From the NCBI GenBank assembly GCA_019192545.1, contig JAHCMI010000010.1, positions 62,001-126,000 on the forward strand: a stretch of 64,000 nt of DNA, written 5' to 3'. The stretch comes from Rivularia sp. MS3 (lineage in GTDB: Bacteria; Cyanobacteriota; Cyanobacteriia; Cyanobacteriales; Nostocaceae). The notes under the pieces were generated by a model that was given only the letters and a program-made list of their open reading frames with translations, did no database searches and had not been told where the DNA came from. The translations under genes and the position numbers were made by a program. Shown in pieces: positions 20,001-59,042 of the stretch (the stretch's first letter is position 1; every line of letters starts with the position of its first letter).

Positions 20001-23000
20001 GCACTTCTGCTTGTTGATTTACACCGTTTGAACAGATATCTAATATTGACAGCGTTAACGGCTTTGCTTCGGAGATAACAACTAATGGTTGTCCTGCTTT
20101 TGTTAAAAAATTGGTTCTCAAAGTTTCATGACGCAGCACTATTTCATTGAAGCTTTTTTGTAGTGCTTCTACATTCAATTTTCCCTTTAATCGTACAGCC
20201 GCCGAAATATTATAAAATGGGCTGTTTTTTTCTAATTGAGTTAAAAACCATAGTCGTTGTTGGGCAAATGATATTGGTAGTTGTTGACAACGGGAAATCC
20301 GCTTAATATTCGTTGCTGTAACTGCTGAATCTAAGGTAATTGCTTTTTCAATTTTTTGTGCTAATCCTGCTATCGTTGGTGTTTCAAATAAATCACGTAA
20401 AGGTAGCTCTACCTGAAATACTTGCTGGATTTGGGAAATTACGCGAGTTGCAATTAAAGAATGTCCTCCTAATGCAAAGAAGTTACTATTAATACCTATT
20501 TTTTCAATTCCAAGTATTTTCGCCCAAATACCTGTCAATAAACTCTCCACTGGTGTAGAAGCAGTTACTATATCCGCTGACGAAATCTGTGTTAAATCCG
20601 GTACAACTAGCGCTTTGCGGTCAACTTTACCATTCGGTGTCAACGGTAAAGCTTCCAAGGTGACAAAACAGAAAGGCACCATGTATTTTGGTAATTTTGA
20701 TTCTACAAAACTTTGCAGTTCATCAATTACTAATATTTGCTGTTCCCGAACGACTACATAAGCAATTATTAATCCAGAATTTGCAGAATCGCCGATTATG
20801 ACTACAGTTTCTCGTACTGCTTTATATTGCCCGATTACAGCCTCAATTTCTCCCAGTTCAATCCGGTATCCACGTAGTTTAACTTGGTTGTCAATTCTAC
20901 CGATATACTCAATATTTCCACTAGGTAAATAGCGAGCTAAATCTCCGGTTTTATAAAGGCGATTGGCGAAGCCTACACCTAAAGGTGTATCGCCCTCTTT
21001 GTTACTGAAGGGATTGGGAATAAATTTTTCTGCTGTCAAATCAAAACGATGCAAATAACCTTTTGCAAGTCCCCTGCCACCGATGCACAATTCCCCAGTT
21101 ACACCTACGGGTACCAACTGGTTATGTTTGTCGAGGATATAAAGCTGGGTGTTGGCAATTGGTTTGCCAATCGGTACGATATTATCGCCCATTTCTACTT
21201 GACTAGCAGCCGACCAAATAGTAGTTTCAGTAGGACCGTACATATTCCACAAACAACGGCATCGCTTCAGCAGTTGATTTGCTAAATTTCTGGGTAAAGC
21301 TTCCCCACCGCAAAGGATTTTTAATTGACTATCTCCATCCCAACCAGCCCCCAAAAGCAACTGCCATGTTGCCGGTGTCGCTTGCATGACTGTAGCTTTT
21401 GTATCCATCAGTGTCGCCGATAACCGGATGCCATCGGCAACAATTTCTCGACTGGCTATTACCACGCGAGCGCCTACTATAATTGGCAAAAATAATTCTA
21501 ATGCAGCAATATCAAAGGAATAAGTAGTAACTGCTAGCAATACATCAGAAGATGTTAATCCCGGAGCTTGCTGCATCGAGTACAAAAAGTTGCTCAAAGC
21601 ACCGTGGCTAATTTGCACTCCCTTCGGTTTACCCGTAGAGCCTGAAGTATAAATTATATAAGCAAGGTCATCGCTAGTAGCTAGTGAGGATAAATTTTCC
21701 TGACTTTGTTGGGCTATCAGATGCCAATCGCTATCCAAACAAACCACTTGAGCTTGATGTTGCGGTATTGTTTCTAACAGCGTGGATTGAGTTAGCAATA
21801 CTGGTGCTTGAGTTTCTTCTAAGATAAAACCTATTCGCTCTTGAGGATAAATTGGATCTAAAGGTACATAGGCACCACCCGCTTTGAGAATAGCCAACAA
21901 TCCAATCAGCATATCCAAGGAGCGCTCGACGTAAATCCCCACCAACACCTGTGATTTTACTTGCATTGAGCGCAAATAATGGGCTAATTGATTTGCCCTA
22001 TTGTTGAGTTCCCGATAAGTTAACTGTTGATTTTCAAATACAGCTGCTATAGCATCGGGTGTTTTTTCCACCTGGGCTGCAAATAGTTGGTGAATACATT
22101 TATCTTCAGGGTAATTAGTAGCTGTATTATTCCAATCGACTAATAGAGTTTGACGCTCGGCTTCTGTTAATAACGGTAGCTCCGACAAACGCTTGTCTGG
22201 TTGAGCAACAATACCCTCAAGCAAATTAATCCAATGACCTACCATTCTTTCAATAGTGGTAGCATCAAACAAATCTGTATTGTACTCCCACCATCCCCTC
22301 AGTTGCGGCTGTGAATCCACCACGTATAAGCTTAAATCAAACTTGGCTGTTTCACTATGGTTTTGCAACCATTTTAAAGTTAAATCGGGTAGTACTAAAT
22401 CTGTTTTAGTATCTGATTGCAAAGCAAAAGTAACTTGGAATAAAGGAGTATGACTGAGATTGCGCTCCGGATGCAACTCTGCTACCAATTGCTCAAAAGG
22501 TATTTCAGCATGAGCATAAGCCCCTACACATACTTGACGAACTCTATGGAGTAATTCTAAAAAACTGGGATTACCAGACAAGTCGGTACGAAGCGCCAGG
22601 GTATTAACAAAAAAACCAATTAACCCTTGAATTTCATCGCGATCGCGATTTGCAATTGGAGAGCCAATACAAATATCTTCTTGACTTGTATAGCGGTACA
22701 AAAGTACTTGAAACGCCGCTAACAAAGTCATAAACAAAGTAACTCCTTGCTGCTTGCTCAAACACCTCAACCGCTCGCTCAATTGTGGTGATAGCTCAAA
22801 CTCTATGGTTGCTCCTTTAAAACTTTGTACTGGGGGGCGTTGATAATCCGTTGGTAGAGATAAACTGCTTGGAGCGTCTGCAAGTTGTTGCTGCCAATAT
22901 GATTGAGTTTTTTCTCGTTCCCCCTGCAACCATTGCTGTTGCCAAATCGAATAGTCTGGGTATTGAATCGGTAATGGTGATAGTGGAGAGGATTTTCCTG

Positions 23001-53319: not shown

Positions 53320-53766
53320 ATGGCAACGCAAGAAGTCACGGTTGAACTCCCACAAGCTATTTTTCAGCAATTGGCTCGTATTGCTCAAGCAACTCAGCAG
53401 CCTTTGGAAACTTTGGTAGCTCAAAGCATCGTCAGCAACTTACCCCCTACACCCGACAATGCACCATTAGAAATCCAAGAAGAACTTCTACAAATGCAAA
53501 CCTGGGATGACGAGGAATTATTGGCGATTACCTTCGGTAGAGCTTCGCTTAACGCCAATAGTCAAATTACATCCGAACAGCAAAAACGCCACATAGAATT
53601 ATTAGAGAAAAATAGCACAAGCGAGGAGCTAAATAAGATTGAACGTTAAGAACTTAGTGAGTTAAGAACTGCTTCTGACCGTTTAATGTTACAAAAAGCT
53701 TATGCTTGGTCAGTTCTCCGTTGGCGAGGACACAAAATACCAAATTTAAATGAAATGCCCCTCTAG
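53320..53766 (+). pseudogene. Hypothetical small protein paired with HNH gene, interrupted by in-frame TAA
   Basis: MATQEVTVELPQAIFQQLARIAQATQQPLETLVAQS...NKIER* followed in the same frame by ELSELRTASDRLMLQKAYAWSVLRWRGHKIPNLNEMPL*. Confidence 0.75.
53530..53556 (+). repeat. SDR-like hairpin repeat inserted in frame (27 nt)
   Basis: accttcggtagagcttcgcttaacgcc encodes TFGRASLNA within EELLAI-NSQI; tACC ttc GGTa stem followed by GCTTCGC. Confidence 0.65.
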
Positions 53767-55482: not shown

Positions 55483-55524
55483 GTTAAACTAAGCCGGAGA
55501 GTCGCCTCTCCGACTCGTCTTCAA

Positions 55525-55557
55525 AACCGTGCTTGAGACTTTTACCTCACACGGCTC
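55525..55557 (-). ncRNA. Group II intron domain V-like hairpin
   Basis: Minus-strand GAGCCGTGTGAGGTAAAAGTCTCAAGCACGGTT forms the D5-type stem, followed by a D6-like hairpin CGGAGAGgcgaCTCTCCG. Confidence 0.75.
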
Positions 55558-55656
55558 CTCGGTAACGTAGGTGTTTGTCATACATACCGTTTTCTCACAT
55601 AAATAAAGATATCCAACAAGATATTCCTTATCCATTTGTAAGCAAGCAAACATTCA

Positions 55657-57050
55657 TTATTTGTCGTTTGCAGTTTTTACATCGTGGCAATGTCGATGGA
55701 GTAATTGCTTGTTGTAAAGATTATTTAATCCACCTTTGGAAAGTGGAATAATGTGGTCAACTTCCAACAAATTTCCATCATAAAAGTACAGTCCACAATG
55801 AGCGCATTTTCCTTTTTGAAGCTTCAATAATTTTGATACATCTTTTGGAGCTTCAGGATGCTGTCCTCTTCTTATACTCCAGTAAATCCAATCACCATCA
55901 TAGACGCTGCGGTTACTTTGCACTTTGACATGATTAATAATCTTTGTATCTGTGTGTTTTCGTAACTTACGGTCATCGTTTAATGGTTGAAAAACCCAAT
56001 TATCTCCACCATTAGATTGCCAATATTTCCGGCGTATCCATTTAAATGGTTTGTGGGGATGACGATGTTTCGACCAACTTTTTAGTTGCCTGTAAACAAT
56101 ATGTTCTAATGCACTAAAAATGCTAGTAGAGCAGACAGTAGAGTAATAGTTTGACCATCCCCTAATAATTGGGTTTAGGTGCTTGATTAAGGCTAATTGT
56201 TTATCACAATTGTGCCTTTTTATTACCTTTCCTACTCTCTGAATGTGTGCTTTTAGCTTTTCTTTGCTTGGCTTGATAATTGTTTTAAACCCAAGTAATT
56301 GACCTTGTGTATTCTTACCTGTATGACATTTTCCTACTGGAAATTGTCGAATGGTAAATCCCAAAAAGTCAAAACCAACATTTTCTGAGTACTTGTTTAA
56401 AGTATGAGATATTCTGGTTTTACTTGGTTTCAATTCCAAGCCTAAACAACTTAACCATTCCACAATTATTTGCTGACATTTCTGAATGACATTCAAGTCT
56501 TCATGCATAATTAAAAAGTCATCCGCGTATCGAATCAAAATAGCATTTGGGATATAACCTGCATACTTGCCATTCTTGTAAACGTTTTTCCGAGGAAAAG
56601 CCTGTTTTATTCGATATTCCATTCCGTGAAGAGCAATATTCGCGAGTAATGGCGCACTTACTCCACCCTGTGGAACTCCTTGTTCAGTTGCGCTATATGA
56701 TTTTTGCCTTGTTGCATAATTCTTGAAATCAATTACTCCCGCTTTTAACCACGCTCGAATTTGTCGGCTAATGGTGGGGAATGTGTTCAGTTTTGTCAAC
56801 AATGCAAAATGATTTATTTTGTCGTTAGCGAAGCGTCTCCCTTTGGGAGAAAACAAGAAGCAATATCGGCATCCAAAACATATTTAGGTTTGAACCTAAT
56901 TGCATTAAATACTGCTTCAATTGCATCATGGGCACTTCTTCCTGCTCTAAACCCATAGGAATTTTCCTCGAATCGGGCTTCCCATTCCGGTTCAAGAGCT
57001 AGTTTGACTAGCGCTTGCTTTGCCCTTTCATCGATTGTGGCAATTCCCAA
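55657..57050 (-). pseudogene. Group II intron-encoded reverse transcriptase/maturase, frameshifted by a 26-bp insertion
   Basis: DADIASCF and DKINHFALLTKL are separated by 26 nt (56824-56849). Confidence 0.88.
56824..56849. repeat. SDR-like hairpin repeat inserted in RT ORF (26 nt)
   Basis: gttagcgaagcgtctccctttgggag; TCTCCC/GGGAGA stem adjoining GCTTCGC (minus strand); removal restores ASCFDKINH. Confidence 0.8.
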
Positions 57051-57177
57051 AGGTCGCTTTTCATCCCTTCCGGGTTTTGGTATCCATACCCTTCAGGTTG
57101 GTTTGGCTTTACTTGAATCTATCCCACTAATCACGAAACGTGATAATCTATTTCTTAACTGAAAGGGTGTATCACTT

Positions 57178-57529
57178 TATGGCTGGACGTTTTGAAGGAT
57201 TAAGTGACTTAGAGTGGAAGTTGTTTGAAGATATATTTCCCCCAGAACCAGAAAAACGTGGTAAGGGAATGCCTCATGCTCCGTATCGTCATGTATTAAA
57301 TAGCCTTTTATATATTTTAGTTACCGGGTGTCGATGGTGTGATTTACCGCGAGGAGGTATATGGGCATCAAAAAGCGCCTCACATAGATGGTTGAAGCGA
57401 TGGTACTCAGATGGAACCTTTGAACATCTACAAGCACGTATATTGGCGATCGCCAACGAGAGGGGACTTATAAATTGGGACTACGGAGCCATTGATGGCT
57501 CTTTTTCCCCCTGGGAAAGGAGGAGGTGA
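57178..57529 (+). CDS. IS5-like transposase, upstream frame
   Basis: MAGRFEGLSDLEWKLFEDIFPPEPEKRGKGMPHAPYRHVLNSLLYILVTGCRWCDLPRG. Confidence 0.82.
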
Positions 57530-58001
57530 AGAAGTTGCCTATGGTGGTAAAGGAAAGGGAATTCTAATTCATACATTAACCGAAGGTAATGGTATGCCCT
57601 TAGCTAATTCTACAACCCCAGCTAACGGTAGTGAAAGAGAGCAGATAATACCTCTACTAGATAAAGTAAAGCTTAAAACATTGAAGCCTGGTAGACCCCG
57701 TAAGAGAGTAAAAGTATTGGCTACTGACAAGGGTTATGACTCAAAAGAAAAACGTGCTGCTTTGCGTAAAAGGGGTATTCGACCTCAAATACCAAAACGG
57801 ACATGGAAAACCAAGAAAAATAGAGGTAGACCAATTAAAATGTCTGTTCCTCGGTATCAGCAAGAGCGTTGCTTTGCTTGGTTTCAACGTAAATACCGTC
57901 GGTTAGTTGTTCGTTGGCAACGTATAAAAGGATGCTTTGACGCATTTATTAATATCGCTACTATCCATATCTGGATTCAAAGAATCTTATTAGTGGGATA
58001 G
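57492..58001 (+). CDS. IS5-like transposase, downstream frame
   Basis: PGKGGGEEVAYGGKGKGILIHTLTEGNGMPLANSTTPANGSE...ATDKGYDSKEKRAALRKRGIRPQIPKR. Confidence 0.82.
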   Translation: MMALFPPGKGGGEEVAYGGKGKGILIHTLTEGNGMPLANSTTPANGSEREQIIPLLDKVKLKTLKPGRPRKRVKVLATDKGYDSKEKRAALRKRGIRPQIPKRTWKTKKNRGRPIKMSVPRYQQERCFAWFQRKYRRLVVRWQRIKGCFDAFINIATIHIWIQRILLVG

Positions 58002-58047: not shown

Positions 58048-58362
58048 ATGGCGAATGAAGGACATCTGGATAAAGCGATCGCCTCAAATCTAAGAGTAAA
58101 TATTTCGACTGTTGAACGAACCCGTGAAAAATTTATGCTTGGGGGATTAGAATATGCAATAAAAGACCGTCCACATCCACGAAGGTCTTGTAAACTTGAT
58201 GGCAAACCAGAAGCATTTTTGATAGCTACTGCTTGTTCGACTCCTCCAGGAGGACGTAATCGTTGGACAATGAGGCTTTTAGCAGACAAAATGGTAAGTC
58301 TTGGTATGGTAGACTCAGTTTCTCACGAAACAGTACGTCAAACCCTAAAAAAAACGAGGTAA
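58048..58362 (+). CDS. IS630-like transposase, upstream frame (HTH)
   Basis: [35 protein letters not shown]...[11 protein letters not shown]; ends just past an A8 run. Confidence 0.8.
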
Positions 58363-59042
58363 AACCTTGGTTAAGGGAACAGTGGTGTATTTCTGAAGTC
58401 AACTCGGAATACATCTTAAGAATGGAAGATGTATTGGATTTATATAATGAGCCATTAGACCCCAAGTGCCCAGTAATTTGCTTTGACGAGACTCCATATC
58501 AACTGATAGAAGAAGTTAGAACACCGTTACCTTCAGAACCAGACCAACCGGAACGTTATGACTTTGAGTATAAACGGAACGGCAGTGTTAATTTATTTGC
58601 GTACTTTCAACCATTAGCAGGCTGGCGACATATCGAAGTTACAGAACGGCGCACGAAGGTCGATTTTGCGAAGCAAATGAAAAATTTAGTTGATATTCAT
58701 TGTCCAGAAGCTGAAGTAATTCGTTTGGTGGTTGATAATTTAAACATACATAATCCAGCCGCATTATATGAAGTTTTTGAACCTACTGAGGCACGCCGAA
58801 TAATACAAAAATTGGAGTTTCATTACACACCAAAACATGCTTCTTGGTTAAATCAAGTAGAAATTGAACTATCAGTGTTGTCTCGTCAATGCTTAGAGCG
58901 GAGAATTCCAGAAGTACAAATATTAAAATCTGAAATTGATGCTTGGGAGTTACAACGCAATCAAGAACGTGCAACTGTAAACTGGCGCTTTAAAACTACA
59001 GACGCTAGACATAAATTTGAACGATTTTATCCAACTATTTAA
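58263..59042 (+). CDS. IS630-like transposase, downstream frame (DDE)
   Basis: [31 protein letters not shown]...; contiguous with the upstream frame after a -1 shift. Confidence 0.85.

Follow-up and report, generated by a model that had tools for sequence, protein, structure and literature searches.

A 26-nt small dispersed repeat in a cyanobacterial group II intron belongs to a two-hairpin family whose DNA-hairpin signature may hint at spread as single-stranded DNA

The window analysed here, a 64,000-nt stretch of the genome of Rivularia sp. MS3 (contig JAHCMI010000010.1, positions 62,001 to 126,000), carries a group II intron whose reverse transcriptase (RT) gene, read on the minus strand, is interrupted by the insert GTTAGCGAAGCGTCTCCCTTTGGGAG (Table 1). 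When these 26 nt are taken out, the protein sequence is rejoined as ADIASCF|DKINHF; the insert being 26 nt long, the RT frame is broken, and the RVT_1 domain (PF00078) is split in the Pfam comparison into profile positions 14-79 and 80-205. The site is empty in 21 homologous introns of this and other genomes, all of which align by BLAST over the junction without a gap. The closest of them (L010, 80% identity) reads exactly TTTTGTC|AAAACA, so that the borders of the insert cannot slide and there is no target duplication; this mark of insertion sequences and MITEs was looked for at 56824-56849 by comparison with L010 and was absent. The claims of an earlier note on this DNA, that the insertion is precisely delimited and that it destroys the frame, are thus both borne out, and the empty sites that it proposed to look for exist. 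Transposase genes also cut the upstream side of the intron, from 57140 onwards, and the intron is therefore a decaying copy. The 5' side of the RT gene is interrupted by two such genes, one in two frames (57140-58001) and one with a broken frame (58048-59042), which were assigned to IS families by visual inspection only.

Table 1. Intron features and dispersed repeats, in window coordinates
Feature	Position	Strand	Basis or remark
26-nt element GTTAGCGAAGCGTCTCCCTTTGGGAG in RT gene	56824..56849	+	flanks TTTTGTC / AAAACA; empty-site comparison
First mini-hairpin GC-GAA-GC, GNA loop	56828..56834	+	sequence; family rule
Second hairpin CTCCC-TTT-GGGAG	56837..56849	+	family stem covariation; T56836-A56850 a possible outer pair
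RT frame, 5' fragment, RVT_1 14-79	56814..57050	-	ORF and Pfam
RT frame, 3' fragment: RVT_1 80-205, GIIM maturase domain, HNH	55657..56856	-	ORF and Pfam
Group II intron catalytic RNA (RF00029), intron 3' end	55483..55559	-	
Sister element, SDR5-like, HIP1-embedded, 27 nt	20962..20988	+	stem ACACC/GGTGT; in frame, NRPS gene
Sister element, SDR5-like, HIP1-embedded, 24 nt	53529..53552	-	stem TACC/GGTA; in frame, 109-aa ORF

Two sister elements in the window both sit exactly between nucleotides 3 and 4 of HIP1 (GCG|ATCGC). The first adds nine residues (TPLGVGFAN) to an NRPS adenylation domain, just before the RLYKTGDL motif, which are missing from the window's five other adenylation domains; the second gives eight residues of its small ORF, and an element identical to it is found elsewhere in the same genome (C151) and three times in a relative (G005). 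There are five elements of the HIP1-embedded type in the source genome and others in several relatives, with none in the controls. PMC4390886 reports SDR5 at this same position in HIP1, and the two sister copies resemble SDR5 both in the HIP1 site and in the layout of an arm plus a hairpin; the copy in the intron differs in lying outside HIP1. Its arm is GTTAGCGNAGCGT, whereas the SDR5-like copies have four variable bases, GCGNAGC and a paired outer stem. The earlier note had counted all three as one family with differing stems. Both of the other stems that it read are present, and the common two-hairpin layout stands, but two of the copies are HIP1-embedded and SDR5-like while the third is non-HIP1 with a different arm; to judge by their sequences, the window copies are better described as two sister types with one two-hairpin layout, the intron copy being of the non-HIP1 type.

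About 90 copies of GTTNGCGNAGCG plus a hairpin occur in the 9.2-Mb source genome, with further copies in relatives; neither of the two outcomes that would have counted against the earlier note, a lack of further copies and a lack of covariation among stems, was observed. The fixed pattern matches 90 places in this genome and its reversal 13; a version that leaves the first loop open but also requires the beginning of the second stem has 64 matches, and none when reversed. The free-loop pattern gives 171 (G005), 57, 54, 48 and 40 matches in relatives, again with none for the reversed patterns, and the counts of 64 and 171 against zero exclude chance for this family. The number of pattern copies in G005 lies at 171-196. 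The exact CTCCCTTT stem type was found in 81 stretches among 84,980 species genomes, where the records listed are all cyanobacterial and the named genera all Nostocales (Nostoc, Calothrix, Scytonema, Rhizonema, Hassallia, Mastigocoleus, Tolypothrix and others). Many family copies are housed in heptamer arrays and in palindromic or MITE-like repeats, and some have long flanks in common. CTCCCTTT is also seen at five places in G005 (L069-L073) with similar flanks, CTAAC.TTGTC on the 5' side and AAAGCTAACATTAC on the 3' side, and these five are apparently part of a larger repeat. Viral contigs were considered as carriers and set aside: there were 6 pattern matches in 2.9 million contigs, and the one inspected (L317) is without the GTTA arm. 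No clear orientation bias was seen along half of the G005 chromosome.

Elhai and colleagues are said to have described, in 2008, the small dispersed repeats SDR4, SDR5 and SDR6 of Nostoc punctiforme and its relatives, 21-27 nt long and of Nostocales range, which reportedly share a secondary structure despite sequence differences, with compensation in the stems, and occur in heptamer arrays and minitransposons. Compared with these by description, the present family is alike in size (26 nt), Nostocales range, covarying stem and presence in heptamer arrays. By its size, range and covarying structure, the intron copy is assigned to this already known class, the small dispersed repeats of Nostocales, where the earlier note had rightly placed it; that note's calling the family active is an extrapolation, no insertion having been caught in the act.

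Each element consists of a 13-nt arm with the mini-hairpin GC-GNA-GC, followed by a hairpin of 4-6 bp. Of 77 distinct copies from the source genome, picked blind to pairing, 57 have a second-hairpin stem that pairs perfectly over 5 bp or more, as against an average of 14.7 (maximum 23 in 1000 trials) when the 5' stem arm is swapped between copies and 0.27 after shuffling. The stem covariation score in an alignment of 21 copies, selected on the 3' AT and not on pairing, is 0.503 versus 0.190 and was reached in 0 of 500 shuffles, and in the HIP1-type sisters the first hairpin's outer pairs also co-vary (G-C, A-T, C-G; 0.343 versus 0.113, 1 of 500 shuffles), though the p-values overstate independence because the copies are related by descent. 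G.T and A.C mismatches in the stems are few. Complementarity is thus kept between differing stems, as had been proposed from the three window copies.

The loops follow a rule of their own. The four bases occur near-evenly at the N of the arm GTTAGCGNAGCGT (A 37, C 32, G 27, T 23), and searches that leave the first loop unconstrained find GNA in 93 of 100 among the G005 matches listed and in 39 of 48 copies of another relative, G001; the G005 exceptions are mostly single G-to-A changes. The second hairpin has GNA in 53 of 65 three-base loops and GNNA in 43 of 47 four-base loops, while the background in other C-G-closed hairpins of the same DNA is 7 of 78 and 7 of 89, respectively. Eighty further Nostocales loci supplied only 8 other copies for testing this rule. 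The second loop of the intron copy itself, TTT, lies outside it. A TCC first-loop subfamily in G001 (GTTAGCTCCGCGTGTCC and one variant, at 7 places) is likewise an exception to GNA; read from the opposite strand, its TCC becomes GGA. HIP1-embedded two-hairpin elements at 41 places in G012, from another genus, have TTT, AAA, TCC and TGC (TNC) loops as well as GNA, and the rule is therefore not universal; hairpin order and strand vary among the G012 elements, as if they had been placed in either orientation of the palindromic HIP1.

The third place of the 43 GNNA loops is a pyrimidine in 35, leaving 8 of the GNRA form, so that most of these loops do not follow the RNA GNRA rule. According to PMC4686876, extraordinarily stable DNA mini-hairpins form when a GNA or GNNA loop, whatever the N, sits on two or more G-C pairs; the Tm given there for the GCGAAGC mini-hairpin is 78 C. 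This rule for d(GCGNAGC)/GNNA mini-hairpins, known from the work of Hirao and Yoshizawa, fits hairpin 1 nearly always and hairpin 2 mostly; these mini-hairpins are known as in vitro structures. Taken together, the loop statistics and the stability rule suggest that the structure is maintained in single-stranded DNA. Energy ranking with standard RNA and DNA folding parameters did not set the GNA/GNNA loops apart, and no link between the stable mini-hairpins and these repeats was found in the literature searched. The first mini-hairpin, the loop rule and the pyrimidine rule described below were absent from the earlier note, and both rules are drawn, for these repeats, from the present data.

A pyrimidine stands immediately 5' of the element in all 79 copies from the source genus and in all 69 from the wider Nostocales set; the two sets have a few copies in common. 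Where the flanking repeats lack the element, they mostly read Y|GA|A, as though two bases had been exchanged for a 28-nt unit (the element with AT or AA), which at this stem length would give a net gain of 26. The intron site accords with this, many of the homologous introns having GTC|GAAACA, which matches Y|GA|A, and the closest having GTC|AAAACA. The pyrimidine and a 3' A are constant across unrelated flanks, and direct repeats beside the site are commoner than in shuffled sequences. The centre of a palindrome was rejected as a general target, pairing across the site being only modestly in excess.

The reading preferred here, with a probability of about 55%, is that of a small dispersed repeat made of two tandem hairpins which inserts beside a pyrimidine, adding 26 nt net, and spreads via single-stranded DNA with the help of an enzyme acting in trans. 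The insertion with its empty sites, the family, the stem covariation, the loop rule and the pyrimidine rule are shown by the data; we infer the single-stranded intermediate and the trans-acting enzyme. The 26-nt non-coding unit consists of the mini-hairpin GC-GNA-GC and then the 4-6 bp hairpin; it would spread in single-stranded DNA form, and the folded DNA hairpins would be what the machinery recognises, the enzyme being supplied in trans. It inserts next to a pyrimidine without target duplication, often into other repeats, and its landing in the RT gene of the group II intron caused the frameshift. The DNA-hairpin signature of the family, which may hint at spread as single-stranded DNA, makes the movement of such repeats directly testable, and loop statistics offer a direct means of distinguishing an intermediate folded as DNA from one folded as RNA. 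The copy in the intron supplies a precise insertion with empty-site controls, and the question at stake is how repeats of 21-28 nt that carry no gene come to spread in the genomes of cyanobacteria. More tentatively, and with the odds somewhat against it, some of the smallest bacterial mobile elements known might consist of two tandem, exceptionally stable DNA mini-hairpins that travel as single-stranded DNA rather than RNA and enter a site marked by a pyrimidine by means of a trans-acting enzyme.

Elhai and colleagues reportedly favoured an RNA-intermediate route in 2008. On this view the target would receive an RNA copy by reverse transcription, carried out in trans by the RT of a group II intron, say, or by some other RT; the covariation of the stems suits either nucleic acid, the genome carries RT genes of group II introns, and the absence of target duplication is compatible with it. 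That the GNNA loops are mostly non-GNRA, that the conserved GC-GNA-GC is a known stable motif of DNA and not of RNA, and that no poly-A or RT-linked signature was seen make this the less likely route, at perhaps one chance in a few, yet still a serious rival.

Spread without any dedicated mobility, by replication errors (template switching or hairpin slippage) together with recombination of larger carrier repeats, seems improbable. It would account for the many copies in heptamer arrays and MITE-like repeats, for the long flanks that some copies have in common and for the excess of flanking direct repeats over shuffled sequences, but not for the precise insertions at unique coding sites in the intron RT gene, the NRPS gene and the small ORF, nor for pyrimidine and 3' A rules that hold in unrelated flanks. 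Mobilisation via single-stranded DNA, the preferred reading, would call for a trans-acting enzyme; none was found in the source genome, where the three Y1 (HUH) transposase genes were the obvious candidates.

The family resembles REP/REPIN elements, the partners of RAYT, in being made of tiny non-autonomous hairpin units without target duplication and in high copy number, and one copy does lie 24 bp past the stop codon of a Y1 gene, but mobilisation by RAYT or another Y1 transposase is very improbable indeed: the GTAG tag is absent, the arm being GTTA or GTTC and then GCGNAGC, no RAYT association was found, Y1 genes are few against many copies, and homologous IS elements are without the repeat. 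The sole adjoining copy (L103, about 1884-1910; G000 C1:448374) follows an IS605-type tnpA, and since the homologous IS elements lack it, it is itself an insertion near an IS end.
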